Made by a program: the position numbers and the translations under genes. A stretch of 24,901 nt of DNA, from the IMG/VR virus record IMGVR_UViG_3300032163_000099, positions 1-24,901 of that record. One strand, given 5' to 3'. The stretch comes from a virus. The notes under the pieces were generated by a model. It did no database searches. It was not told the DNA's origin and worked only from the letters and a program-made list of their open reading frames with translations. Of the stretch, positions 976 to 24,814 are shown in pieces. Every line of letters begins with the position of its first letter. Position 1 is the first letter of the stretch.

Positions 976-1593
976 CTACGTCCCCCCGATCACGGACTTG
1001 ATGATGTAGCGGATGGTCTCGGCGCGGTTCTTGAAACCCATCTTCGTGGTAAGGGTGTCAAGGGCCTCCGACTCTTCGGGTGTCAGGCGGGTGGCGACGG
1101 CTGTGTTGAGCCCGGCGCCATTTCCGGGTGGCCGACCCCTCCTGGAAGGTTGTTTATTTGGCGTAACATTTTCTTGGCGAGGCGCACTGCCGCAAGTCTG
1201 TGGTTTGTACTCTGGTGTAGCATGGAGATAGCCTGCGGCCTTCTGCCGTATTTCTGGGTCTACCTCAAGCCAGCCAATTAACTGATTGCAGCGGGCACAT
1301 AGCAGGCCACGGATCTGCCCAGTTGTATGGTTATGATCTACAAAGAGAGGCTTGCCTCCGTTTTTCGGTGGTTCATGGCAAATAGCACAGACGCCGTCCT
1401 GATCCTTCAGACGGGCAGCATAGTCATCGGCTGATATCCCATATAGGTTCATTAGTGCATTCGTTCGCTGCATCTCCTTGCGGCAGGGACGACAATAACT
1501 CGAACCTGGGCGGCCATTGTTTCCACAACTCCGAACAAACTCGGTTATGGGCTTATCTTGTTGACAATGCAAACAATGTCTTGAGTCCGTCAT
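976..1593 (-). CDS. Endonuclease VII-like nuclease fused to a ribbon-helix-helix domain
   Basis: The first ~110 residues match the recombination endonuclease VII (HNH superfamily) pattern: two Cys pairs near the N-terminus (CLHC and CRPC), then DGVCAICHEPP, the catalytic VDHNHTTGQIRGLLCARCN segment and IGWLE. A linker follows with an AT-hook-like RRGRPPGNG. The last ~45 residues (LNTAVATRLTPEESEALDTL, then NRAETIRYIIKSV) look like a complete CopG/MetJ-type ribbon-helix-helix DNA-binding domain. Such Endo VII genes in phages are often homing nucleases. The RHH tail could give sequence specificity, or it could be the remnant of an RHH gene that the nuclease invaded. The start overlaps the upstream stop as ATGA. 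Confidence 0.85.
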   Translation of the reverse strand: MTDSRHCLHCQQDKPITEFVRSCGNNGRPGSSYCRPCRKEMQRTNALMNLYGISADDYAARLKDQDGVCAICHEPPKNGGKPLFVDHNHTTGQIRGLLCARCNQLIGWLEVDPEIRQKAAGYLHATPEYKPQTCGSAPRQENVTPNKQPSRRGRPPGNGAGLNTAVATRLTPEESEALDTLTTKMGFKNRAETIRYIIKSVIGGT

Positions 1594-4545: not shown

Positions 4546-4786
4546 CTGCCGCAATATGGCCTTCTCGGACACAGGGGCACCTGCTAAAGTCCCAGTAACG
4601 GATTTTCACTTCGGCCCCTGTGTGCTTTTCGAGTACCGCCCGCAGTGCCGGAAAGCGGTAGTGATAGCCACTGTCCCATCGCATTAGACAGGACAGGACT
4701 TCGGTAAGATTGCTACAGTACCGGGGGCCCTCCAACCGCAATTCATAGGCGGGGGAGTCATATAGGGTGGCTACATAGGGCTTCAT
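4538..4786 (-). CDS. Protein of unknown function (82 aa)
   Basis: No family is recognised. The protein starts MKPYVATLYDSPAYEL and has scattered aromatic residues, a Cys-rich tail (SRCPCVREGH) and a central WDSGYHYRFPALRAVLEKH segment. The start overlaps the upstream stop (ATGA) and the stop overlaps the methyltransferase start (ATGTCTGA), placing it in the same coupled transcript as the small terminase-like gene and the C5 methyltransferase. It may accompany the methyltransferase, but only position suggests this. Confidence 0.65.
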   Translation of the reverse strand: MKPYVATLYDSPAYELRLEGPRYCSNLTEVLSCLMRWDSGYHYRFPALRAVLEKHTGAEVKIRYWDFSRCPCVREGHIAADV

Positions 4787-5400
4787 ACATCGATCCCCTT
4801 CGCCCGCAGTTGGGCCCGTGCCGCCTCCGGCACCGGCCTCCCGGCTCTGATGGCAAGCAACGCTATCGCCTCATCGCCGGTGAGGTTGATGTTGAACATG
4901 GTGCCCTTGATCTCCTTGGTGTCCTGGAGGATCTTGGCCGACCGTAAGATGGTGTCTACTGTCCGGAGACGTATGCGCCAGTCCGGGCGGACGGTATCTG
5001 CCTCAAACCCTTTGCCGCAGTGGGGGCACATCACCTTCTGTCGGAGCCCACGTTCGGCCTCCAGCGCCTCATCCAATACGCCTGCCGCACGACCTGACAT
5101 CAGTTCCAACTCACGTTTGGTGAGTTTCACATCGTCAAGACTGATGAGGTCGTCATAGGCCTTGTTGAAGGCCTCGTCGTCTGTCAGCCAGCCGCGGACA
5201 CGACGCTCTTTGATCTCTAGGACTTTACACGCCTTCTTCCAACTCCCTTGGATCAGGAGTTCTTGGAGAAAGCGGCGCTGGTCGAGCATTAGGCCATCTG
5301 GCCCACGGCGCTGGAGTCCGTGACCGCCACCGAGGTAGGTCTCGACCGTCGAGACGACCTCGCCCTCTAGGGGCACCAGGGCCTTGTCGTCCTCAGACAT
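4783..5400 (-). CDS. Probable terminase small subunit
   Basis: The protein (205 aa) has an N-terminal helix-turn-helix-like region at about residues 30-80 (QRRFLQELLIQGSWKKACKV, then ERRVRGWLTDDEAFNKAYDD). This fits the small terminase pattern in which a DNA-binding HTH reads the packaging site. A helical middle (ELMSGRAAGVLDEALEAERG) could serve oligomerisation. A CPHCGKGFEAD element and a C-terminal part with NINLTGDEAIALLAIRAGR follow. Small terminase subunits recognise phage DNA and load the large packaging ATPase. No large subunit is visible in the window, so this rests on the sequence pattern only. The start is the ATG in the ATGTCTGA overlap; a GTG at 5421 is less likely. Confidence 0.55.
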   Translation of the reverse strand: MSEDDKALVPLEGEVVSTVETYLGGGHGLQRRGPDGLMLDQRRFLQELLIQGSWKKACKVLEIKERRVRGWLTDDEAFNKAYDDLISLDDVKLTKRELELMSGRAAGVLDEALEAERGLRQKVMCPHCGKGFEADTVRPDWRIRLRTVDTILRSAKILQDTKEIKGTMFNINLTGDEAIALLAIRAGRPVPEAARAQLRAKGIDV

Positions 5401-6274
5401 TGGCCCTCGTATCAAAGACACTAGCCGCCGCGTTCACCACCTGCTGTAGCGAGTCGGGCCGGAAGGCCAGAAGTTCAGACGCCAGTCCCATGTAGGCTTT
5501 TCGTAGGGCGGCCTCGTCCACCAGCGGCGGGTTGCTGCTGACGTGAACCAACTTGCAGACCTCATCCCACTCGGCGTCCGTGGCGTGGTGGATGGTGTAG
5601 AAGTTGATGCCCTCCGGACAGTAGATTCCCGCACCCGTCGCCTGGAGACGGATACCCTCCGGTCCCATCGTGCGGATCTGTCCAGAGTCCTTCGGCCACT
5701 CCCAGGGGTAGGATTGAAGGGTGGGGAAGACCGGCAGACCGTAGAAGTCTTTACCCTGAAGACACTCCACAACGGCCAGTGTGATGTAGCCGTCCGGCTG
5801 CGATGGCCGGAAGGCACCGGGGTAGATCATGGGCATGACGCCGTTACACCGCAGCAACATGACCTGCTGGTATGGGTGGCGCAGACGGTCGCCGCGAGTA
5901 TCGATTGAGGCATAGAGTGGCGTCCCAGGGTGTCGGGCACGGAAGGTGTTGATGAGAGTCGTCATCGCTGGGCCGGTGTCCGTAAGTGGACCCCAGCCGC
6001 CGGGCCCTTCTTCGGCGTTGATGACGGCGAACTGGGCACCCGCATCCACGGCATTAGCCAACTTGGTGCCTTCACCAACGGGATCATCCCTGTAGGCGTA
6101 CCGCTCCGTGGCCCATCGGACACCGCCGGCGGCGTAGGCTTTCTCCGTGGCAGGCGCCCCATACTTGACGATGACGCCTTCGATCTTGGCCCGCTGCGCC
6201 CGCTCGACGCACTTCGCCAGGGGCATGGTAGACCAATTATTGTGCCATGCCCAAATACCCGCAGCCGTAGTCAT
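5393..6274 (-). CDS. TIM-barrel, glycoside-hydrolase-like protein
   Basis: The 293-residue protein begins MTTAAGIWAWHNNW and shows the alternating strand/helix layout of a TIM barrel: GVIVKYG, an Arg/Tyr-rich strand, AGAQFAVINAEEGPGGWG, TPLYASIDTRGDRL, GVMPMIYPGAF, and GLPVFPTLQSYPWEW. The acidic NAEEG after a beta strand would suit a glycosidase active site. About 60 helical residues follow at the C-terminus. It might be a cell-wall hydrolase or a virion-associated enzyme; substrate and role are inference. The chosen start (ATG 6274) has AAAGGAGA at good spacing and an ATGA overlap with the HNH gene stop. An upstream in-frame extension to 6346 lies inside that HNH gene and is unlikely. Confidence 0.6.
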   Translation of the reverse strand: MTTAAGIWAWHNNWSTMPLAKCVERAQRAKIEGVIVKYGAPATEKAYAAGGVRWATERYAYRDDPVGEGTKLANAVDAGAQFAVINAEEGPGGWGPLTDTGPAMTTLINTFRARHPGTPLYASIDTRGDRLRHPYQQVMLLRCNGVMPMIYPGAFRPSQPDGYITLAVVECLQGKDFYGLPVFPTLQSYPWEWPKDSGQIRTMGPEGIRLQATGAGIYCPEGINFYTIHHATDAEWDEVCKLVHVSSNPPLVDEAALRKAYMGLASELLAFRPDSLQQVVNAAASVFDTRANV

Positions 6275-9090: not shown

Positions 9091-11880
9091 CTAGTCTTGG
9101 TCTTCCTTCCGCAGGTCGAGGATGTCTCCCCTGGCTGTCAGTTTGAATATCTCGTCGCCCCAATAAGGGCCCCAAGAGATTTCCACCGGCACGGCCCAGC
9201 CGAGGCGGGAACCATCCGGCAGGATCAAGGTCAGCGCCGTCTGCTCCCAGAGGTGCTTGATGATCCTGGCAGTCTCCTCCGCGTAGGCGTGGTCCGGCCA
9301 GTAGAACTCAAACGTAATGGAGTCATGGACGGAGATCACGGGGTAACATTGCCGCTGCTTCAGGGTTGGTGAGGCCTCTGTTAGAATGTGTGCCACACTG
9401 TGCAGCGTCGAACAACCTGATTGGATGGGGTAGTTGATTCCTTCGCGTATGAGTGCCTCCAAGTCATTGAACCGCCGCATGGCCTTGAGCAGTGACGCCG
9501 CCGGGAAGTGGCGCCGCTGACCGAAGATGTTGTCTCGGTGGCCCAGTTCGATCACGTCCCTTCGCGCTTGGGCGAAGTAGGAGGGCAGGCTGGCAACGAC
9601 CTGCATGTAGCGGATTCGGATCTCCTGTGCCTCTTCCAGACTGCAATCGAGACGGTCGGCGATCCCTTCATCGGTGAGTCCGTACCCAATGCCGAACACA
9701 AGTGTCTTTCCATGCCGCCGGAGGTCAGCATGTGCTTCCTTCCACTCGAAGTCCGTCATCTCCGGGTCAACTGGCCAGATAGCACGAGAGATGTAGACAT
9801 GGACATCCTGGCCGCTGGTGAGCACCTTCAGCAGGCCATCGTCCCCGGCCATGTACGCCAACCCCCAGACCTCCGCTTGGCTCCAGTCGGCGGTCATAAG
9901 GCCAAAACCTTCCGGTGCCATGAATGTCCGGCGGAAGGCGTCCTTGGTTCCCAGTTCCGGAATCTCCACATTGGCGGGTTGGTTCTGCATGTTCGGGTCG
10001 GCGGAGGATAGGCGGGTTGTCTCAGCACCACCGGGACGGTAAGTGCTACGAACGCGATTGTCTGATTCGATGAAGCGGGCAAGGCCCCCCGCACCATTAC
10101 TACCGTCGAGGTAGGTGCCCTTGGCCTTCCGTAGTTCCTTGAGTTCCACCAGGATGGGCAGGATGGGATGGTCAACCTGAGAACGAACGGCAGCAAGGGC
10201 ATCCGCCCCCGTCTGCTCGTGCTCGAAGCAGAGGCCCACGTCGCAGGCCTCACATCCGCGCCCGCCATCAGTCTTGAAGCCACTCTTGGGCAACCCCAAC
10301 TCCTCGAAGAGGATGCGTTGGAGGTTCTTGTGGTACATGTAGTTCCAGGGTGCCTTGGTCTCTGGCAGAGGGATGGCCCAGAGCCGTGCCTCCGCGTCCG
10401 CGATGCGCTGGGAGTAGTGGGCGCAGAGTTTCTCGAAGTAGTCCGTGTCCACCAGGACGCCGCGCTTCTCCATCTCCCAGCAGCAGCGTATGAGGGGCTG
10501 GATGATCGCCTCCGATGCCCAGCGCGTACCCTCGGCATCGGCCTTCGCCCGTAGGACAGGGACCACCCGCTCCACGGCGTCGGCGTCGGCGGCACTGTAC
10601 TTCCAAAGCACGTCATCCGGGGCCTCCGACATCTTCCGCTTGTTGCTGCTGACGGCGTTGACTTCTGCCTCGTAGTAGGGCATCGGCGGGTCGGCATAGC
10701 GGGCCGTCAGAATGGAAAGACTATGGCGCTTGGTCTTCCGTGCCTCCGGCGGCATGGCTGTCTCTGCGACCGCATGGTGCAGGAGCATGGTGTCTTCAAT
10801 CTGGCCCTTGATCTCGATGCCGAAGGCGGTGGCGGCCGTCACGAAAGGCCAGTCCGGGCTCCGCTCCAGGAAGCGGAGGTCGAAGATTCCGTTTTGGAGT
10901 ACCTTCTTCTTATCCGAGCCAAAGATCTCCTTCAGGATGGTGATGACCTGGGGCCATTCGTCATCCGCCCAGTGGGAATCAACCCCGGATTTTGGTACTT
11001 CCACGAGGTAGGGCGGGCCGGATGGGGGCGCAGACATGAGGATGATCTCCGCCGGGGTCTTCGGTGGGCGTTTGCCCTCCAATAGGTTCTTGGCCACCCG
11101 CGGACTGATCTCCACGATGTCCTCCGCTACCCGCTGGTGCGACAGGAGCGGAACCACGAATCCCTCGCTGGGCTCGGTGGAGAAGGAAAGGCAGAGGATT
11201 TCATCGTGCCGCCAGTCAAGGCCGGTGGTCTCCGAATCCGCCGCAATTTCCCGCGTGGACGGATGGAGTAGGTAGTCTCTAAGGTCGGTGAGCTGGGCCA
11301 GTGTGGTGATGGCGGAGTAATCACCAAGGCGGGGCTGACCCAGCTCTCCCGACGCTATGCGGAGGGCCTTCTCGAAGTGGGCCTGCACGGTGTCGGCGAC
11401 GTGCCACTGGCCACGCAACAAGAAGGCCGGATGGTAGCTCGGAATGAATGGGATTCCTGTCTCTGGCTGAGTGAGTGTCTGGCCCAGTACCGAACTCAGG
11501 GTCACGGTCTGGCCGTAGACGCTTTGCAGGGCGACATCGCCCAGGGTGACGATGATTAGCGGGGCCACCTCCTTGATCTCTTCAATGAGGTACGGGCGGC
11601 AGGTCCGGATCTCGGCCACTGTTGGGCGCCGGTTGCCGGGTGGGTGACAGCGGATGGCGTTGGCTAGGTAGACGCCTTGTGCCGGGATGTTGGCCATGTC
11701 GCAGAGCAACCGGAGGAGGTGCCCGCTGGGGCCTACAAAGGCCTTACCTTGGAGGTCTTCCTCTTCGCCTGGCGCAAGTCCGACGAACATAATGAAGGCG
11801 GGGGTTCCACGACCGCCGACTATGCGCTTGCGGCACTTCGAGAGAGCAGGACATAAGTTACAGTCTGGGGCGGGGGGCAT
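9091..11880 (-). CDS. Uracil-DNA glycosylase / family A DNA polymerase fusion
   Basis: Residues ~1-175 are a family 4 uracil-DNA glycosylase-like domain: CNLC at 7-10, LAPGEEEDLQGKAFVGPSG, NAIRCHPPGNRRP and TCRPYL (the four Cys expected to bind an iron-sulfur cluster), VTLGDVAL and YHPAFLLR. A 3'-5' exonuclease domain follows with D215-S-E217, QNGIFDLRFL and YSAADADA. The polymerase domain has TTRLSSADPNMQNQP, motif A around D665 (TADWSQAEVW), motif B RRHGKTLVFGIGYG and motif C VHD with D853. All catalytic residues look intact. This is the replicative polymerase; the same domain order is known from the SPO1-type phage polymerase. A Cys/His cluster (C543, C546, C551, H554) sits in the thumb-to-palm region. 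The start has GAGGAA 7 bases upstream. Confidence 0.95.
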   Translation of the reverse strand: MPPAPDCNLCPALSKCRKRIVGGRGTPAFIMFVGLAPGEEEDLQGKAFVGPSGHLLRLLCDMANIPAQGVYLANAIRCHPPGNRRPTVAEIRTCRPYLIEEIKEVAPLIIVTLGDVALQSVYGQTVTLSSVLGQTLTQPETGIPFIPSYHPAFLLRGQWHVADTVQAHFEKALRIASGELGQPRLGDYSAITTLAQLTDLRDYLLHPSTREIAADSETTGLDWRHDEILCLSFSTEPSEGFVVPLLSHQRVAEDIVEISPRVAKNLLEGKRPPKTPAEIILMSAPPSGPPYLVEVPKSGVDSHWADDEWPQVITILKEIFGSDKKKVLQNGIFDLRFLERSPDWPFVTAATAFGIEIKGQIEDTMLLHHAVAETAMPPEARKTKRHSLSILTARYADPPMPYYEAEVNAVSSNKRKMSEAPDDVLWKYSAADADAVERVVPVLRAKADAEGTRWASEAIIQPLIRCCWEMEKRGVLVDTDYFEKLCAHYSQRIADAEARLWAIPLPETKAPWNYMYHKNLQRILFEELGLPKSGFKTDGGRGCEACDVGLCFEHEQTGADALAAVRSQVDHPILPILVELKELRKAKGTYLDGSNGAGGLARFIESDNRVRSTYRPGGAETTRLSSADPNMQNQPANVEIPELGTKDAFRRTFMAPEGFGLMTADWSQAEVWGLAYMAGDDGLLKVLTSGQDVHVYISRAIWPVDPEMTDFEWKEAHADLRRHGKTLVFGIGYGLTDEGIADRLDCSLEEAQEIRIRYMQVVASLPSYFAQARRDVIELGHRDNIFGQRRHFPAASLLKAMRRFNDLEALIREGINYPIQSGCSTLHSVAHILTEASPTLKQRQCYPVISVHDSITFEFYWPDHAYAEETARIIKHLWEQTALTLILPDGSRLGWAVPVEISWGPYWGDEIFKLTARGDILDLRKEDQD

Positions 11881-17826: not shown

Positions 17827-18380
17827 TGGAGTTTTCCCTTTCTCTCTGCCTTACATCTACATGTGGGGCAGTGTGGTGGCCCGCTCCCTGCTCCGTGGCG
17901 ACCCCGCCAGAGTTCTAGGTTCTCTGGGCGGTTGTCCTGTTTGTCGCCGTTCTTGTGATGTACGGTTTCGCCTGGGTGGAGATAGCGTCCGATCAGATGT
18001 TCCATTATCAGGCGATGTTCGAGAACATAACCGTTGCTGGCAAACGGATGTTGGCGCATCCGCGTGTACACGTATCCGTCTGCTTGCCGGACACGGCCCC
18101 CTTTCCAATGTCCGTTCCGTGCACCACTGGTCATCCTTCCCGTTCTCCTGCCACTGCAATGGAGACATAAGCCCGTCAGATTTCCTTCCTTAATTGTCGC
18201 CCGAACCTGATGAACCGTAACCCGTTGGATGTCGTCGCAGATGACACAGCGGCGCAGTATGGATAACCGCCGGTTTCTGCCAGACGATTCTCCTGTGGAG
18301 ACAACCTGGTTGTCCAACGTGAAGTAGGATCGTAAGTCTTCGGGTAACTCGTCATAAGTCAGTGGCCTAGCTTTAGTCAT
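17823..18380 (-). CDS. HNH homing-type endonuclease between helicase and primase
   Basis: The 185-residue protein has an N-terminal region with CVICDD and CLHCSGRR (~44-82, a likely zinc finger), a GYVYTRMRQHPF linker and the HNH core LEHRLIMEHLIGRYLHPGE, TVHHKNGDKQDNRPENLELW. The C-terminus has a second Cys pair (CPTCRC). This matches phage HNH_3 enzymes, which are mobile genes that nick DNA at a target. It separates the helicase and primase genes with short overlaps on both sides (ATGACTAA, ATGA), and GGGGGAGAGGG precedes the ATG. Composition looks lower in GC than the flanking genes, consistent with late insertion. Confidence 0.88.
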   Translation of the reverse strand: MTKARPLTYDELPEDLRSYFTLDNQVVSTGESSGRNRRLSILRRCVICDDIQRVTVHQVRATIKEGNLTGLCLHCSGRRTGRMTSGARNGHWKGGRVRQADGYVYTRMRQHPFASNGYVLEHRLIMEHLIGRYLHPGETVHHKNGDKQDNRPENLELWRGRHGAGSGPPHCPTCRCKAERKGKLQ

Positions 18381-19734
18381 CCCTCTCCCCCGATAGTACC
18401 CCCGTTAGGTTGCGCGTCTCGACGACTTCAAGTCCAGGGAACCCGTTGTCCCCTCGACCGAATGTCGCCGTACAGCGCAGCCAGCCGCCGGTGGTACCGT
18501 GGTGTGTGTCCTTCAGCACCGAAACGTTCATCCAAGGCCCCTCCACGTCGTCCCGTTCCTGGTCGGTCTGGGCTAGGCCCAAGACAAAGTGTGCTTTCTG
18601 CGCCTTGGCAAAGGAGGCCCCCACATGCTTGAGGCTTATGCGGGCCTTGTCCACCGCCTCTCTTGTGGCTTGGCCGGTGGTCCAGATGGGCACTTCCCGC
18701 CCCTGTGCCACCTCGCCGCGGAGAGTGGTGAAGATATCCTTCAACTCTTCCCAACCCTGCCGCTTCTGGCGCTCTGGTACAAGTTCATCTGCCGAGTCCA
18801 AAACTATCAACCCCGGCGGTTGGCCAGTTTCGGCGATGTACTGGTCGATGTCGTGGATGAGGTCGCGGATGGTCATCAGCCCCGTCCGCACGTCGATGTC
18901 GGCGGCCGGCGGGTCTGCCATGTGTCTGCCCTTGGCGGCCCGGAGCAGTTCTGTCTGCCACAATGTAGCGTTTAGGGCCTCGTCCCGGCCCCACTTCAGG
19001 GAGCGGGCACCCTTCTGGAGGATGCCAGTCACGGCCCGGCGTAAGATCTGAGTTGGCGTCAACTCGAATGTGTAGTACAAGGTCGAACGTTTCTTCCAGA
19101 ATGCCTCCACCGCCATGTTGACGGCCAACATGCTCTTGCCGGTGCCCGTCGGACCAAGTATGATCCCCAACTCTCCGGGATGGATGCCGCCCTCCCACAG
19201 TTTATCCAGGTCATAGAGGCCTGTGGGGATGGCGCCGCCAGAGAATCCCTGCGGCGGTTCGCCGATGAATGCCGATAGGCACACGTTCTCGTCTGAATCC
19301 TCGGTGCTGGAAGTTAGGGCTGTGCTCAGTTTCTCCCTGGCCTTCTCCACGTCGCCTCTGTCCAGGGCGGCGCCTGCCTGTTCGACGTAGGCACCGAGGG
19401 CGTACTGTGCCAACCATGCCGTGCAGACCTCGCGGGCATAGGCCAACGAGGGGGCATCCGGCGCGTAGTTGTCCAACTCGAAGTAGAGGCGGATGACCGC
19501 TTCCTCCGTCGCCCGCGCCTTCCGGAGTTGGGTGTACTCCACTTCGAGGGCCTGACTTAGTACCGAGGCCGTGACCGTGTTGCGGTAACGTGCCCACTGC
19601 CGGAGGGCGAGGTCGGCAAGATACTTCATTGGCCCCGGAGGAAACACGTTTGGGTCCAGGGTCTTATGGGCCCGCAGGAAGTCCTCATCATGCAGGAGGA
19701 GCCAGACCGTGCGGTAGGCTACGTCGTCAGTCAT
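18373..19734 (-). CDS. DnaB-like replicative helicase
   Basis: The protein (453 aa) has a short N-terminal helical domain (YRTVWLLLHDEDFLRAHKTL, residues ~7-105) and a RecA-type helicase domain. That domain has IPTGLYDLDKLWEGGIHPGE, Walker A GPTGTGKS (194-201), STLYYTFELTPTQILRR, and PGLIVLDSADELVPE as Walker B. IWTTGQATREAV and HVGASFAKAQKAHFVLGL follow, the last with the Arg/Lys-rich loops of the family. It unwinds the fork and pairs with the primase encoded downstream. ATG 19734 was chosen for spacing to AAGGA; ATG 19737, overlapping the previous stop, is the alternative. A longer frame to 19899 overlaps the previous gene. Confidence 0.87.
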   Translation of the reverse strand: MTDDVAYRTVWLLLHDEDFLRAHKTLDPNVFPPGPMKYLADLALRQWARYRNTVTASVLSQALEVEYTQLRKARATEEAVIRLYFELDNYAPDAPSLAYAREVCTAWLAQYALGAYVEQAGAALDRGDVEKAREKLSTALTSSTEDSDENVCLSAFIGEPPQGFSGGAIPTGLYDLDKLWEGGIHPGELGIILGPTGTGKSMLAVNMAVEAFWKKRSTLYYTFELTPTQILRRAVTGILQKGARSLKWGRDEALNATLWQTELLRAAKGRHMADPPAADIDVRTGLMTIRDLIHDIDQYIAETGQPPGLIVLDSADELVPERQKRQGWEELKDIFTTLRGEVAQGREVPIWTTGQATREAVDKARISLKHVGASFAKAQKAHFVLGLAQTDQERDDVEGPWMNVSVLKDTHHGTTGGWLRCTATFGRGDNGFPGLEVVETRNLTGVLSGERDD

Positions 19735-19958
19735 CATACTTCCTTCAGCACGTCTACACCCACCCAAGACTTGAAGGCAGCGGCACAGCGAAGGCAGATG
19801 TTCCCCCGGAGACCACGCGAGTCGTTCGATTCGTTGTTTCTGGTGGCACCCAGGTAGAGTCCACAGTACGTTCCGTTGATCCCCATTACGATATGCCATC
19901 GTTGGCCGGGATGTCTCCGGGCGAAGAAGGTTCCGTAGCGGCTGAGGTCAACTGTCAT
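19734..19958 (-). CDS. Protein of unknown function (74 aa)
   Basis: The protein begins MTVDLSRYGTFFARRHPGQR, has a strand-rich middle (WHIVMGINGTYCGLYLGATR) and a single CLRC pair followed by AAAFKSWVGVDVLKEV. The two cysteines plus nearby residues could bind metal, but this is not certain. It starts by ATGA overlap with the upstream gene and ends at the helicase start (TGATG). It is probably an accessory to the helicase, by position only. Confidence 0.65.
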   Translation of the reverse strand: MTVDLSRYGTFFARRHPGQRWHIVMGINGTYCGLYLGATRNNESNDSRGLRGNICLRCAAAFKSWVGVDVLKEV

Positions 19959-20299
19959 CTCAACGCCACCTCCAACTCCGGTATCTTAGCGGCGAAGAGT
20001 CTCATCGTGTGGGTGTAGCGCCCGGCCAACGGTTCACTATGCCAGTGCCAGAAGTACGTGGCCAACTCCTTCAACCGCATCTCGCCATGCTTGAGGAGCA
20101 GGCGCTTCGCTATCCCGGCATCCTCGGCGTCGAAGGGTGGGCAAGAGGAGCGGCACTCTATCCCGCGCTGGCGGAACCAGTGCAGGAACTCGCCGACAGT
20201 GTTGGCCGGCGCCACCTCACCCCCAGGGGTCGGGCTCCACTCGGATCTCCGGACGTTCACGGAATACCGGCGGTGGCCGTCCGTCAGTGTCGTCCGCAT
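19955..20299 (-). CDS. Protein of unknown function (114 aa)
   Basis: The start is ATG 20299, preceded by AAGGGAGAGAG, the same strong ribosome binding site used elsewhere in the window. The protein starts MRTTLTDGHRRYSVNVRRSE and contains NTVGEFLHWFRQRGIEC, LLLKHGEMRLKELATYFWHW and YTHTMRLFAAKIPELEVALR. It appears mainly helical. The first ~27 codons overlap the tail of the NUMOD4-HNH gene in another frame, and the reading frame extending further upstream is a shadow of that gene. No family is recognised. Confidence 0.65.
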   Translation of the reverse strand: MRTTLTDGHRRYSVNVRRSEWSPTPGGEVAPANTVGEFLHWFRQRGIECRSSCPPFDAEDAGIAKRLLLKHGEMRLKELATYFWHWHSEPLAGRYTHTMRLFAAKIPELEVALR

Positions 20300-20729
20300 C
20301 TCTCTCCCTTCGCCTTTGGGCATAGTGATCCCGCAGATGCTTGGCTCGCGATCTCCACGCCAAGTTAGTGTCGCAATTATGTGCTTTGTTCCCGTCCTTA
20401 TGGTGGGTGATCTGGCGCGGGTCTTTCCACCGGGCTTCCGGCATCGGAGGGAGCCACGCCGCCACCACCAGCCGTTGCAGGGCAATAAAGAGACCCTTTG
20501 GCCGGGGCCTGTCTGTGTTCCGCAACTTATCGCCGTTGCCCGGCGGCATGTAGACATAGAGGTGGCCATCCGGTCTCCGTACAGGCTTGATGATCCGCCC
20601 GACGTAGGTTCCCTTGCCGGGTGTATCACGCCGCACCCTGCCCAGGTTGGAGACAACGTAATCCGGCACACCCGGTATCCGTTTGAACTGCTCCTCCCGC
20701 CGGCAGCAGGGACCGAAACTTTCGGGCAA
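20217..20729 (-). CDS. NUMOD4-HNH homing-type endonuclease
   Basis: The protein (170 aa) has the NUMOD4 motif (FKRIPGVPDYVVSNLGRVRR, ~15-34), a KGLFIALQRLVVAAWLPP helix and the HNH segment QITHHKDGNKAHNCDTNLAW (~107-126). The basic tail after HYAQRRRERD is short on conserved features and shares 83 bases with the next gene. It begins at TTG 20729 with AAAGGGAGAG 4 bases upstream, and it is the first gene after the long repeat-bearing gap. NUMOD-HNH enzymes are mobile genes common in phages. It may have been inserted between the early promoter and the replication operon. Confidence 0.82.
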   Translation of the reverse strand: MPESFGPCCRREEQFKRIPGVPDYVVSNLGRVRRDTPGKGTYVGRIIKPVRRPDGHLYVYMPPGNGDKLRNTDRPRPKGLFIALQRLVVAAWLPPMPEARWKDPRQITHHKDGNKAHNCDTNLAWRSRAKHLRDHYAQRRRERDADDTDGRPPPVFRERPEIRVEPDPWG

Positions 20730-20840
20730 AGGTTCTCTCCCTTTATTTACGTGTGACGTACTCTATTCTTAATACCTGAGCCCTAAAGCACCAGCATTAG
20801 TAGGGGGGCATCCTTTAGCCCCGGCCTTCTAAGCCTAGCG

Positions 20841-20850
20841 TTATTAGGGG
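20841..20850. repeat. TTATTAGGGG repeat, copy 1
   Basis: This 10-base sequence is identical to the copy at 20902-20911. On the minus strand it reads CCCCTAATAA and is followed after 3 bases by TAGGCT, in the same arrangement as the second copy, which lies inside a promoter. It may be an operator or a DnaA-like/replication protein site. Confidence 0.6.
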
Positions 20851-20892
20851 CTGAATCTGGGCTCTAAGGGATGACTCCTTCTCCTCAGTTCT

Positions 20893-20921
20893 ATCCTACT
20901 CTTATTAGGGGTGACTGTCAA
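20893..20921 (-). promoter_or_regulatory. Sigma70-type promoter for the replication operon
   Basis: On the minus strand a perfect -35 box TTGACA (20916-20921) stands 17 bases before TAGGAT (20893-20898), a fair -10 box. The spacer contains the repeat CCCCTAATAA (20902-20911), so a protein binding it would probably control this promoter. The start site would fall near 20886, about 157 bases before the TTG start of the NUMOD4-HNH gene. Confidence 0.65.
20902..20911. repeat. TTATTAGGGG repeat, copy 2, inside the promoter
   Basis: It is identical to copy 1 at 20841-20850 and 61 bases from it. It occupies the spacer between the -35 and -10 boxes of the minus-strand promoter, a classic operator position. 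A shorter relative (TTATTAGG, 20972-20979) lies 70 bases further. Confidence 0.62.
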
Positions 20922-20971
20922 CTCCTAACAGCGCAACGGTACGCCCTCGGAAAGGCTAACCTTTGTTAACA

Positions 20972-20979
20972 TTATTAGG
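20972..20979. repeat. TTATTAGG partial repeat, copy 3
   Basis: Eight bases match the two full TTATTAGGGG copies, after which the sequence diverges (AACC). On the minus strand TAACAA follows after 3 bases, where the other copies have TAGGCT and TAGGAT. It may mark a third, weaker promoter or binding site. Confidence 0.45.
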
Positions 20980-21049
20980 AACCTGCGTAAGCGCCCCCAT
21001 CACCTTGCCAATGGTGGTGCTCAGGTCGTGCCAGCGCCAGACGGCAGGG

Positions 21050-21271
21050 CTAGCGGGGCTCGCCCAGGGCCTGGATGCGGGCACGCTTCTCATCCATCAT
21101 GTACGGTCTACGCCATCGCCCATACCGGCGTTCGGCGAGTGCGCCCGCATCATAGGCCGCCAGCATCGCGTCGCGGACGGCGGCCATTTTTCTCTGGCGC
21201 ACAATCTCGGGATAGCCCCAGGCAACTGCTTGGAATGCTGCTGCCCACGCCTCCTCAACATCCGGCATCAT
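21050..21271 (-). CDS. Protein of unknown function (73 aa)
   Basis: The protein starts MMPDVEEAWAAAFQAVAWGY and is helical and Ala/Arg-rich (VRQRKMAAVRDAMLAAYDAG, ALAERRYGRWRRPYM). It ends with a charged segment (DEKRARIQALGEPR). The basic helices could contact nucleic acid. The start overlaps the upstream stop as ATGA, and it is the last gene before the long intergenic region. No family is recognised. Confidence 0.65.
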   Translation of the reverse strand: MMPDVEEAWAAAFQAVAWGYPEIVRQRKMAAVRDAMLAAYDAGALAERRYGRWRRPYMMDEKRARIQALGEPR

Positions 21272-21939
21272 CGTGTCTCCCGCTCCTGTTCATACAGGGC
21301 TTCACCGTAGGCACCTTCCACCTGTTCGATAGTTGGGCACGGCAGCTCCGCAGCCTGCGGGTCTTCGAGCCAGCGAATAGGCTTGCCGTGTGCCCGCGCA
21401 TAGTCGATTTCGCTCTGAGTGGATTCGCCCACATACCCGCCGACATTGAGGATCAGAACCTCATCAGCCAGGTCGATCTTGCGCTTGTGCAACTCGTCCA
21501 GGGCCTTGACAACTTCAGGGCCAAGACTCTCAGCGACGTGGCCGCCATCTGGTGTCTCGGCGTACTTGCAGACGCCCACGGATAGGACGATGTTTCCCAG
21601 AAGCGTCTCGCGCCAACCTGCCTCGTGGAAAGCGTCCATGAACCGCGTGCTGCCACACAGGCAGACGATCCGTGGCCGTGGCTCCGCAGCCTGCGGGGAG
21701 AGCAGGGCACGGGCCTCCAGGCGGGCACGCAGGGCGTCAAAACGCTTATTGCAGTCAGTCCAGTTGCCCTCAACAGCGAGACGATGCACAGCGTATCCCT
21801 CGTCAAGCACCGCCAGCGCGTAGCGGTCGGCGGCGGCACGGACGGCCTCTAGCTGCCCGCGTCCGACGTGGTAGAGTCCGGCGAGGATATTCAACTCGTC
21901 CGTCAGCGTCGCCCGCGCCTCGTCTATCGGATCAACCAT
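21268..21939 (-). CDS. Deoxyribosyltransferase-like protein with helical N-terminal extension
   Basis: The 223-residue protein has a helical N-terminus (~1-85) and a Rossmann-like domain: RIVCLCGSTRFMDAFHEAGW, GNIVLSVGVCKY, LDELHKRKIDLADEVLILNV and GGYVGESTQSEIDYARAHGK. This C-terminal pattern occurs in many phages and is usually placed near nucleoside 2-deoxyribosyltransferases; the Glu in STQSEI is at the expected nucleophile position. The substrate is unknown. PQAAE flanks the domain on both sides and is encoded by a 17-base direct repeat. The start is ATG 21939 in a TGATG overlap with AAGGATAGG upstream. Confidence 0.72.
   Translation of the reverse strand: MVDPIDEARATLTDELNILAGLYHVGRGQLEAVRAAADRYALAVLDEGYAVHRLAVEGNWTDCNKRFDALRARLEARALLSPQAAEPRPRIVCLCGSTRFMDAFHEAGWRETLLGNIVLSVGVCKYAETPDGGHVAESLGPEVVKALDELHKRKIDLADEVLILNVGGYVGESTQSEIDYARAHGKPIRWLEDPQAAELPCPTIEQVEGAYGEALYEQERETR
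21345..21361. repeat. 17-base direct repeat, copy 1 (PQAAE linker)
   Basis: GCTCCGCAGCCTGCGGG occurs here and again at 21681-21697 within the same gene, in the same frame. It codes for the PQAAE linker after the deoxyribosyltransferase-like domain. The core CCGCAGCCTGCGG is nearly palindromic. Confidence 0.7.
21681..21697. repeat. 17-base direct repeat, copy 2 (PQAAE linker)
   Basis: It is identical to 21345-21361. It codes for PQAAE before the deoxyribosyltransferase-like domain, so the two copies bracket the domain. Confidence 0.7.
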
Positions 21940-22076
21940 CACTCACCTATCCTTATGTTTCCACAGCACCAGCAGATGCCTTGGCTCGTCTCGCCGTGGC
22001 CAAAGCGCCGGTGCCACCAGCGCACGATGGGGGTCAGGTCATCAAGGAAGCAGGTGAACCACTCAGGGATACACAT
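21939..22076 (-). CDS. Small Cys-containing protein (45 aa)
   Basis: From ATG 22076 the protein reads MCIPEWFTCFLDDLTPIVRW, then a His/Arg-rich part and GICWCCGNIRIGE. Paired cysteines at both ends could bind one metal. The start overlaps the end of the upstream gene by 14 bases; ATG 22082 is an alternative two codons earlier. No good ribosome binding site is visible, so coupling is assumed. No family is recognised and the gene is less certain than its neighbours. Confidence 0.5.
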   Translation of the reverse strand: MCIPEWFTCFLDDLTPIVRWWHRRFGHGETSQGICWCCGNIRIGE

Positions 22077-22323
22077 CGCCATTTTCAGCGCACTTGCGCT
22101 CCTCATACGGGACCACCATACGGCGGTATAGTTCCTGCTTTGCACACTCCAGGACTCCGATGACCTCGTTGAAGTGCGCGTAGGAGGCGCCCATCATGTC
22201 CAGGTACTCGGCCGCCAGTTTGGTCATGGCGTAGTTGAGGTCTCCGGGTCCAGACAGGAACGGGATAACCGGGTCGATGTGCTCGTCGATGATAGGTCGG
22301 TCGTGTGGGTCGATGTAGGGCAT
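22063..22323 (-). CDS. Conserved small phage protein (86 aa, DUF6899-like)
   Basis: The sequence has the recurring phage pattern MPYIDPHDRPIIDEHI, GPGDLNYAMTKLAAEYL, SYAHFNEVIGVLECAKQELY and RRMVVPYEERKCAENGDVY. This family is widespread in phages and some bacteria, and its function is not known to me. The DUF number is given from memory. AGGAGGAGAGAACC just upstream of the ATG is a strong ribosome binding site. Confidence 0.75.
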   Translation of the reverse strand: MPYIDPHDRPIIDEHIDPVIPFLSGPGDLNYAMTKLAAEYLDMMGASYAHFNEVIGVLECAKQELYRRMVVPYEERKCAENGDVYP

Positions 22324-22335
22324 GGTTCTCTCCTC

Positions 22336-22539
22336 CTAGTGTATGATGACGTAGGCTGGCCGGGACGGGACTGGGATGCGCTTGGCCGGGGTCCGACAAG
22401 GCACCACCCTGAAGTCTTCCAGCTTGTCGTCTGCTTTGACCACCTTGCCGGGGCACTCCTGGTAGTCGTCCATCTTGGCGATGGGCACGATCTTGTCAAA
22501 CTTGTGGCCCCGTGGACATTCGTATGAGTAGAGTGGCAT
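22336..22539 (-). CDS. FmdB-like zinc-ribbon protein (67 aa)
   Basis: The N-terminus MPLYSYECPRGHKFDKIVPI resembles the FmdB/CxxC_CxxC regulatory zinc ribbon, which normally begins with MPxYxYxCxxCG. Here Cys8 is present but the second Cys of the first pair is replaced by His12 (CPRGH). ECPGKVVK and VVPCRTPAKR carry the later cysteines. The function of the family is unclear; a small regulator is plausible. AAGGGATGAAAC precedes the ATG, and it starts 3 bases after the methyltransferase gene. Confidence 0.62.
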   Translation of the reverse strand: MPLYSYECPRGHKFDKIVPIAKMDDYQECPGKVVKADDKLEDFRVVPCRTPAKRIPVPSRPAYVIIH

Positions 22540-22542
22540 GTT

Positions 22543-23082
22543 TCATCCCTTCTTCGGCCAGACCCGGATGCCGGTGTGCATTCCGGAGTAGACAGGGCCC
22601 GTGTACCAGACATACCAAGCCGTCGTTACCGAATCTGTCTTCCCGTCGCCGGTGAATGAAAACCTTGGGGTTACAACGAGAAGATCCGGCGGGTGCTTGG
22701 CCAGCCATGCCCCGCGCTCGTAGGTGGGCTCCAGGAACGACAGCCGGAGCAAGAGGGCGACGCCCTCATGCGCCAACGGAAGCATCTGCTTCAGGATCTC
22801 GAACGCCTTGGAGAAGGGCGGGTTGGTTACAACCCAGTCCACTCGACCGATGTTCGCGTGCTCAAATGGCCTGGAAACGTCCAGCGTAAAGTGGGCGTCC
22901 ACCTCCGGGTCGATGTCATTGGTGGTGAGGAAACCGCGACCCCGTTTCCTGAGCGCCTCAACCAGATGGCCCCGCCCAACGCATGGCTCTAAGATATGGC
23001 CGCCGACCTGCGCGTATTCGACCAGGGCATCGATGGCGGTCTGCGCCTGGAGTGTGTAGTAGGCGTCGTTGTCTCTACGCAC
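22543..23082 (-). CDS. Adenine-type DNA methyltransferase-like protein
   Basis: The protein (179 aa) contains HILEPCVGRGHLVEALRKRG (motif I, SAM binding, ~29-48), TTNDIDPEVDAHFTLDV and VDWVVTNPPFSKAFEILKQM, where NPPF is the catalytic motif IV of N6-adenine methyltransferases. LLRLSFLEP and the tail continue the fold. There is no separate target recognition domain, and it is short for a site-specific enzyme. It may modify DNA or another target; phages use such enzymes against restriction. The start is GTG 23082, 2 bases after the preceding stop, with no clear ribosome binding site. Confidence 0.78.
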   Translation of the reverse strand: MRRDNDAYYTLQAQTAIDALVEYAQVGGHILEPCVGRGHLVEALRKRGRGFLTTNDIDPEVDAHFTLDVSRPFEHANIGRVDWVVTNPPFSKAFEILKQMLPLAHEGVALLLRLSFLEPTYERGAWLAKHPPDLLVVTPRFSFTGDGKTDSVTTAWYVWYTGPVYSGMHTGIRVWPKKG

Positions 23083-23084
23083 GT

Positions 23085-23408
23085 TTAAACGTCCTCCGGC
23101 TCCGGCCTGTCCTGCTGCATCTTGATGATGCTCTCCAGCAAGTTATAGGTGAGAATAGCCTGCCACTGGGCGCTGCCTGCCAGTGCCGCGAAGGTGGAGG
23201 ATTTCTCGCCGTTGGGCGCCGTCAACTTGGCGTCATCCTCCATCACGATCCCGAACACCACCCCACCTACCTTCGCTGGGTGGGCCAGGGCCTCGGTGAG
23301 GATGCCCTGGATGTGCTCCATCGCCCGCTGTTCGTGGATGCCTCGGTCGTCTAGGGGGATGTTCGTCTGGGCCTCGCGGTAGATCATGCCTGACTCTAAT
23401 GGGTCCAT
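23085..23408 (-). CDS. Phage protein of unknown function (107 aa)
   Basis: The protein starts MDPLESGMIYREAQTNIPLD and contains HEQRAMEHIQGILTEALAHP, KVGGVVFGIVMEDDAKLTAP and AQWQAILTYNLLESIIKMQQ. It appears to be a mixed alpha/beta fold. The start overlaps the helicase stop by 13 bases; an internal ATG (MIYREA) is a possible alternative. It is not recognised; position suggests expression with the helicase. Confidence 0.65.
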   Translation of the reverse strand: MDPLESGMIYREAQTNIPLDDRGIHEQRAMEHIQGILTEALAHPAKVGGVVFGIVMEDDAKLTAPNGEKSSTFAALAGSAQWQAILTYNLLESIIKMQQDRPEPEDV

Positions 23409-24814
23409 TGGTCTATCTCCTCTGGACTTATTTCTGCGACCGTGTAGGCTGCCTCTTGCTCATAGGCGCGGCGGCGGCTGCGGTATTGGCGTCCCAGGTA
23501 GAAGCCACGATCCGCTAGGTCCACCACGGTCAGCCGATCCTTGCCGGCGACCTTCCGCATACCTCTTCCGATCCGCTGGATTTGGCGGTGTGGAGCCCGT
23601 CCCCCGCCAGCCAAAATGAGGTTGGCAATGTTAGGAATGTCCAGTCCTTCGTCGGCTATCACCGAAGCTACGACGCAATCTAGGCGCCCCTGCCTCATGT
23701 CCTCCCATTTGTCCACGCGCTCGGCCCCGGATGTAGATCCAGACATGAACGGTACATCCAGGTTGGTGGCCAGGAGACGCCCGTGCTCGATGCGTTCTAC
23801 TAGGATGAGGGTGGGGCCTGTTTGCCGGAGGGCCTGGGCGAGCTGGACGATGACGCCATTCCGTCCGGCGTGGGCGGTAATTCCGGTTTGGTAGGCAGTC
23901 TGGTAGTCCATATCCAGGGGCAACCGCCCCGGCACGGAGGTCACGATGAAGACATCCGCCGGCACCAGGCGTCCGGCTGCTATCCCCTTCTCGCTCGGCA
24001 GATGTGACACCACGGGCCCGGTCCACCCCACCACGTTGAGGTAGGTGCCTTTGTCCCCGCTCTTCGTGGGTGTGGCCGAGTAGCCAAAGCGGTAGTACGC
24101 ATTGGGGAGGTGCTGCATCACGTACTCGTAGGTTTCTGCAACGACGTGATGCACTTCGTCAACGTGGACCGCTAGGAACTGGCGGAGCCATCCTGCGGTT
24201 TCCTTGTTGGTCTCCGGGTTCCGCAGCCGCGAGTAGATGGTCTGGAAGGTGGCGACGGTCAGTCCCTCTCCCTCTTCCCACCGACCGTCGCCAACGATCC
24301 CGGCTTTGATGTGGTAGATGTCCCGTGCCCGCTCCGCCAACTGGTAGAGCAAATCCTTCCGATGGACTAGGGCCAGCGCCGGTACTCCCAGTCTCTTCAC
24401 GATCTCCAGGAGCACATGGGTCTTGCCCGATCCGACAGGATGGTGGACGATGCCCCGGCCCGCAGCGCAGGCCGCAGCCACAGCCTGCTCCTGGTAGTCC
24501 TTGAGTTTGACCGTGGGTTCTTGGGTGAACAGATCCTCACGCCGCTGCGGGCGGATGCGCCGATCCTCGATGCTGGCCTGGATGTCAGCAACCTTCAGAC
24601 TCTCGACGACGTGGGCCACCAGCCCGGCGGGGAAGCGGCCGTCTCGTTTCATCAGGCACACCTGCCCATCCCAGAAACCAAGGCGATAGGCGTTGGAAAA
24701 AATGTATCCCTTTGGCCTGAAGGTGAGGGCATCCCGGACGAGCGCCTGGACGCCCGGCGTGTCACTCTCGGCGACGGCCCAGAGGTTGTCCTTGATGATG
24801 AGGTTGCAGTCCAA
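23396..24814 (-). CDS. SF2 DNA helicase, UvsW/ComFA-like
   Basis: The 472-residue protein has an N-terminal accessory domain (YIFSNAYRLGFWDGQVCLMK, ~38-57, as in UvsW) and two helicase lobes. These show KDYQEQAVAAA (Q motif-like), PVGSGKT (126-132), VATFQTIYSRL, VDEVHH (218-223) as motif II, and FGYSATPT (motif III). The second lobe has TLILVERIEHGRLLA, FMSGSTSGAERVDKW, VVASVIADEGLDIPNI and QIQRIGRGMRK (motif VI). It likely remodels forks or recombination junctions rather than driving the main fork. The start is TTG 24814, after a GGAGGAGGAAGAG run, 3 bases past the upstream stop. Confidence 0.85.
   Translation of the reverse strand: MDCNLIIKDNLWAVAESDTPGVQALVRDALTFRPKGYIFSNAYRLGFWDGQVCLMKRDGRFPAGLVAHVVESLKVADIQASIEDRRIRPQRREDLFTQEPTVKLKDYQEQAVAAACAAGRGIVHHPVGSGKTHVLLEIVKRLGVPALALVHRKDLLYQLAERARDIYHIKAGIVGDGRWEEGEGLTVATFQTIYSRLRNPETNKETAGWLRQFLAVHVDEVHHVVAETYEYVMQHLPNAYYRFGYSATPTKSGDKGTYLNVVGWTGPVVSHLPSEKGIAAGRLVPADVFIVTSVPGRLPLDMDYQTAYQTGITAHAGRNGVIVQLAQALRQTGPTLILVERIEHGRLLATNLDVPFMSGSTSGAERVDKWEDMRQGRLDCVVASVIADEGLDIPNIANLILAGGGRAPHRQIQRIGRGMRKVAGKDRLTVVDLADRGFYLGRQYRSRRRAYEQEAAYTVAEISPEEIDQWTH

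Follow-up and report, generated by a model that had tools for sequence, protein, structure and literature searches.

The short repeats that crowd a 320-bp intergenic gap (20730-21049) of the window are probably operators of a sequence-specific regulator, most likely a temperate-phage repressor controlling early replication transcription, as judged from sequence comparison. The window is the whole stretch of DNA that was analysed, 24.9 kb from a virus record, and all its genes, as judged by open reading frames (ORFs), lie on the minus strand. The operator-like cluster is conserved and belongs to a phage group without close annotated relatives.

A search of IMG/VR with the DNA polymerase revealed three close relatives with 88-90% protein identity, G001 (56,227 bp), G002 (20,622 bp) and G003 (52,984 bp), and one distant relative, G004 (40%). 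The same three contigs were recovered with the helicase and RecA queries. Nucleotides 18000-24000 of the window gave no match among 50,697 phage records, the best polymerase matches being ∼26% identical. Among bacterial genomes, a Rubrobacter MAG held a single remote relative of the polymerase (26%), which gave no guidance on the host. The gap returned a single 32-base chance-level match from phages (E 0.03, in a serine integrase gene) and none from plasmids. Literature queries on such operator themes, which were not sequence-aimed, returned no paper recognised as concerning the present phage group.

The genes of the window include those of an HNH endonuclease, a DnaB-like helicase, a primase, a RecA/UvsX-like protein and DNA polymerase A, along with endonuclease VII, methyltransferases and a UvsW-like helicase. 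The gap has a GC content of 0.519 as compared to 0.607 in the window. It had been described in the initial annotation as immediately upstream of the replication genes; the helicase, primase and polymerase genes do lie downstream, beyond an HNH gene that comes first, and since several same-strand genes also precede the gap (21050-24814), it is an internal control region and not the start of an arm. The features of this region are the following:

18373..19899, minus strand: DnaB-like helicase gene, part of the presumed operon
20217..20729, minus strand: gene of an HNH endonuclease with a NUMOD4 motif, first gene downstream of the gap, TTG start
20735..20774, minus strand: conserved 5′ leader with a presumed ribosome-binding site AGTACGTCACACGTAAATAAAGGGAGAG, also found before a different first gene in G001
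20790..20804, minus strand: operator-like site D, CCTACTAATGCTGGT, in three of the four contigs and degenerate in G002
20834..20848, minus strand: predicted operator C, CCTAATAACGCTAGG, ∼45 bp downstream of the promoter, in all four contigs
20893..20921, minus strand: sigma-70-type promoter, with −35 TTGACA at 20921-20916, a spacer of 17 and −10 TAGGAT at 20898-20893
20895..20909, minus strand: predicted operator B, CCTAATAAGAGTAGG, within the spacer and the first four bases of the −10
20924..20938, plus strand: degenerate inverted copy CCTAACAGCGCAACG, just 5′ of the −35
20965..20979, minus strand: predicted operator A, CCTAATAATGTTAAC, 70 bp upstream of B, in all four contigs

The leader AGTACRTCAYACNTAAATAAAGGG (20735-20774) is kept in the window and the three close relatives, even where the first gene differs. 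Rfam matched no known RNA element in the window and the consensus fold of the leader is weak (−8.64 kcal/mol over 184 columns, 4 sequences); a known RNA element was rejected on these two grounds.

The repeats are placed as the initial annotation had described them. The 10-base word TTATTAGGGG occurs exactly at 20841-20850 and 20902-20911, 61 bases apart, with the partial copy TTATTAGG 70 bases further along (20972-20979); a copy with one mismatch was also located at 20797-20806. Read along the minus strand, the hexamers TAGGCT, TAGGAT and TAACAA come three bases after the copies, and the middle copy lies between TTGACA and TAGGAT of the promoter. The claimed crowding of CTAA/TTAG within 225 bases is likewise confirmed, as ten such words fall in 20772-20996, against a mean of 0.43 per stretch of equal width; a count of ten is reached in only one of 988 stretches and in none of 500 shuffles of the region. 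Taken alone, TTATTAGGGG is modestly unusual, with three matches at no more than one mismatch as compared to 0.53 expected, a count reached by 4 of 100 shuffles. Within the window, the core word CCTAATAA is confined to the gap, where a window-wide search placed all three of its occurrences, each on the minus strand, as compared to none for the reversed control word.

All four gap copies belong to a 15-bp element with the consensus yCCTAATARnGnTAG, spaced 44, 61 and 70 bp apart. An orthologous control region is present in each of the three close relatives, where it precedes the HNH gene, another gene coming first in G001. The −35 hexamer is identical in all four aligned contigs. When G002, which has no clear D site, is left aside, the four 8-base cores agree at 30 of their 32 positions as compared to 95 of 178 for the rest; with G002 included the counts are 23 of 32 and 62 of 178, all from metagenomic contigs of which three close relatives amount to few independent observations. 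The inverted copy beside the −35 is clearer in the relatives, reading CCTAATAA in G001 and CCTAATAC in G002. The distant relative G004 shows no sign of the element, since it holds one CCTAATAA against four reversed control words. A scan of IMG/VR with TTGACA-N6-CCTAATA-N4-TA gave mostly chance matches among those listed, because only six of these had a GC content above 0.5 or at least four copies, and one of the six was a contig of the same group (L053, i.e. G001).

The consensus rests on 27 sites, orthologues included, all of which were picked by CCTA(A/C)TA, not counting the four inverted copies that lie 5′ of the −35. The columns outside this selection are also conserved, namely G10 (23/27), T12 (25/27), A13 (22/27) and G14 (19/27). 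The outer bases form a partial dyad CTA-N7-TAG, with pairs 2-14, 3-13 and 4-12 complementary in 19, 22 and 25 of the 27 sites, while the inner pairs 5-11 and 6-10 are complementary in 3 sites each. Since the outer bases pair and the inner bases do not, the site is largely but not wholly asymmetric; set against the dyad symmetry of an operator for a lambda-type dimeric repressor, the outer pairs agree and the inner pairs do not.

The recurrence of the element was assessed with a matrix trained on 14 sites of the replication control region, 60 shuffled sets serving as background. At a score of at least 17, it located ten further sites as compared to a shuffled mean of 0.08 (maximum 1), five each in G001 and G003 and none in the window (G000) or G002; at a score of 12, there were 19 sites against 4.4 in the shuffled sets. 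A matrix built from the four sites of the window alone gave seven at 15.5 or above, as compared to 0.17. The further sites scoring at least 17 are:

G001, positions 50561, 52212, 52246, 52339 and 52371
G003, positions 29530, 30157, 30191, 30285 and 34123

Three of the G001 sites fall in small plus-strand ORFs of 45-69 aa called by a simple gene caller, which are taken to be spurious. The 53-kb contig G003 carries eight exact copies of CCTAATAA, mostly at control regions.

In G001 and G003, both of which reach the genome centre, three to four of the further copies gather at a second, leftward promoter near the integrase gene. The two clusters are orthologous, having the same spacings of 34 and 93-94 bp, and are flanked by the leftward genes and the integrase. 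A leftward promoter, TTGACA-17-TATCTC/T, is present in each, one site overlapping its −10. A small conserved lysine-rich ORF adjoins this second control region (L028:1495-1671 and G001 52538-52675, both on the minus strand; 82% over 39 residues). Integrase arm sites were rejected because the copies lie from ∼3 kb (G003 30157-30285) to 17 kb (the replication promoter) away from the integrase start at 33233. The site at G003 34123 stands 46 bp ahead of the structural operon and is common to G003 and fragment L169 (position 73); fragment L170 is without it. Ten places of the form TTGACA-16/18-TA were found in the four contigs. Six of these, the four replication promoters and the two second promoters, carry a site, and in all six control-region promoters it lies within 45 bp and overlaps the spacer and/or the −10. 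The remaining four are without a site, two of them before integrase genes (G001 56098, G003 33252) and the others at G000 3659, inside a gene, and at G003 47532, so the regulon does not extend to every promoter.

The orientation of the site bears on its nature. It runs with transcription at the replication promoters of the window, G001 and G003. In G002, an 18-bp spacer holds the site inverted (19966, plus strand) and shifted by ∼5 bp towards the −35. In the second control region, site and promoter occupy opposite strands (G001 52246, G003 30191). The element might also be regarded as a core promoter motif of a phage sigma factor or polymerase, CCTAATAA standing three bases from TAnnnT, and the TA that follows after three bases in most copies (T12 25/27, A13 22/27) agrees with this. 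Such a motif is scarcely to be expected inverted at the same promoter or opposed to another, and a recognisable −35 is missing at C and D of the window; a core promoter element was rejected on account of the inverted copies and is held to be most improbable. A binding site that can be read from either side, and neither a core motif nor an orientation-bound stoperator, explains the orientations.

The location of the repeats near replication genes, in a gap richer in A+T, is also what an iteron-type replication origin adjoining the helicase gene would present. Phased direct repeats, DnaA boxes and an A+T-rich melting region are the marks of such an origin. The spacings are not phased and one copy is inverted, no DnaA box (TTWTNCACA) occurs in the window, the GC skew, proposed earlier as a check, shows no turn, and the relatives carry more copies at promoters 10-20 kb away. 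An origin is thus rejected on spacing, DnaA boxes, skew and the distribution of copies, and is considered very unlikely; since related viruses carry this word at the corresponding promoters, a control switch is the likelier reading. The initial annotation had entertained an operator cluster, an iteron origin and a multi-promoter switch side by side. Recurrence at the promoters of relatives, the conserved core and the overlap with spacer and/or −10 argue for the first, while the irregular spacing, the inverted copy, the missing DnaA boxes and the distant promoter-linked copies leave the second without footing. The third gains little, as one consensus promoter stands in the gap and the hexamers TAGGCT and TAACAA have no recognisable −35.

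An operator cluster can be understood in simple terms. A protein bound at B, which would cover 15 bp of spacer and −10, would exclude RNA polymerase from the promoter; this is the simplest reading, and the promoter concerned appears to be the single strong one driving the HNH-helicase-primase-polymerase genes. Sites A, C and D and the inverted copy by the −35 may contribute cooperative binding or serve as roadblocks. Further targets of this protein would be the second leftward promoter, close to the integrase, and, in some relatives, the point where the structural operon begins. We infer that the sites are bound by a protein, that it represses, and that the phage encodes it. An activator, either a phage middle-gene activator or a host factor aiding RNA polymerase, should leave much the same traces as a repressor, and it would account equally for the anatomy, with sites upstream (A) and at the promoter, and for the return of the element at several transcription units. 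A perfect −35 and a 17-bp spacer are already present in the promoter, and sites that lie over the spacer and −10, reach ∼90 bp downstream and stand in either orientation fit steric repression better, making activation unlikely.

Operators of such a kind are usual for temperate phages. G001 and G003 both encode a tyrosine integrase, and are therefore probably temperate. A tRNA-Asn-like sequence, recognised by eye, lies beside the integrase gene (L170:1-900, the end of G001 and ∼33.2 kb in G003) and is likely the attachment site; the integrase genes together with this adjoining end suggest temperate phages.

Among known systems, P1 C1 has 22 dispersed operators with a 17-bp asymmetric consensus, ATTGCTCTAATAAATTT, according to the available part of PMC8546580. 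As in P1, to the extent that this part describes it, the window has short operators in sigma-70 promoter spacers and the group has them dispersed over the genome; the P1 annotation places operators Oref and Oc1d inside promoter spacers. The P1coi promoter TTGACAATTGCTCTAATAAATTATAG is near in layout to that of the window, TTGACAGTCACCCCTAATAAGAGTAGGAT, its TTGACA-ATTGCT-CTAATAA resembling TTGACA-GTCACCC-CTAATAA, and the paired inverted operators of P1 (Oc1ab) resemble B with its inverted copy. Unlike P1 C1, however, the 17-bp operator itself is not reproduced: by inspection only the core CTAATAA is common, and G10 and the TAG at 12-14 of the window are absent from the consensus as given in that part of the source. 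With tblastn and phmmer, P1 C1 (c1.100 allele, 283 aa) found no match in the four, possibly incomplete, contigs, and no homologues of Lxc or Coi were found there, the single Coi match having an E of 0.44. Kinship with P1 is not claimed, because the common core is seven bases long and no relative of C1, Lxc or Coi was found.

Phage L5 and others of cluster A, as described in the available portions of PMC9283540 and PMC6550527, have 20-30 sites of 13-14 bp, of which an operator stands at the early promoter and more are found in other places, and the orientation of these sites follows transcription. The present group is like L5 in the operator at an early promoter with more elsewhere, and in a central integrase flanked by structure and replication arms. 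It differs from L5, as portrayed in those portions, in having eight exact CCTAATAA in a 53-kb contig, mostly at control regions, in place of 20-30 sites, and in an orientation independent of transcription, the site being inverted in G002 and, in G001 and G003, lying on the strand opposite to the second promoter. The Trixie repressor (192 aa) gave no match by tblastn or phmmer in the four contigs, which may be incomplete. In phage BPs, the available text of PMC4557955 places the operator of the repressor gp33 between the −35 and −10 hexamers of the early promoter, other promoters having operators as well, as is seen here; unlike the present element, the BPs operator is built there from 12-bp palindromic half sites whose sequence, CGACATATGTCG, is unrelated. 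The cluster is best read as one that would work in the manner of the dispersed operators bound by the repressors of P1, L5 or BPs. By the tests made, it belongs neither to the P1 system nor to that of L5, as repressor homologues, the P1 operator sequence and the L5 orientation rule were not found in the four contigs. That the lineage possesses a genome-wide immunity network with a repressor outside the described families, its operator core and placement (TTGACA-N6/7-CTAATAA) being independent of, or very remote from, those of P1 C1, is a tentative and rather doubtful proposal.

The search for the regulator detected no HTH_3 or RHH_1 protein in any of the four contigs. Pfam and PHROGs scans of 31 G003 proteins (29 of 35 called ORFs and two hand-chosen) and 36 G001 proteins (36 of 44 called ORFs), sets that take in little of the structural arms of G001 and G003 and not all of the left arms, named no repressor. 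This null result would agree with a host repressor, e.g. an SOS repressor of LexA type, binding the sites and coupling the phage to host stress, as would the partial dyad of the outer bases. The non-complementary inner pairs speak against it, and such a repressor is highly improbable. Two candidates were considered and neither is claimed. One is an RHH-like ORF of 73 aa (G001 21053-21274), in which RHH_1 was not detected; its predicted fold is weak (mean pLDDT 70.6; best PDB match NikR, E 0.12), beyond the group, neither phages nor IMG/VR yielded a relative of it, and there is no clear match in G002 or in G003, the latter beginning before the corresponding region. The other is an HTH_28-like protein of 205-212 aa (4783-5421; E 0.049, below the family's cut-off), which is present in all four contigs, has no convincing PDB relative (best E 0.02) and an unusable model (pLDDT 47), and is perhaps the terminase small subunit.

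With these operators, an uncultured phage group would gain a readable regulatory code, indicating which promoters form one regulon. Site B offers a DNA bait for fishing the missing repressor, and the relative whose spacer site is naturally inverted lends itself to testing whether such repressors need a given orientation. Confirmation of the repressor reading would mean that a further lineage uses multi-site repression of the kind described for P1, L5 and BPs.

Further features concern the domain arrangement of some proteins of the group. The C-terminal RHH-like tail of the endonuclease VII protein (window 976-1593, minus strand) is, in G001, the separate 73-aa ORF (L003:18752-18970) considered above as a candidate regulator, which suggests fusion or separation of a DNA-binding module. 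The UvsW-like helicase of G003 (19477-21807; L154:2678-5008) has 776 aa as compared to 472 in the window, and it probably bears an intein, since intein splicing and Hint domains were found in the G003 protein set. At the N-terminus of DNA polymerase A (window 9091-11880, minus strand) lies a uracil-DNA glycosylase domain (Pfam PF03167, E 1.7e-28), and three relatives retain the protein.
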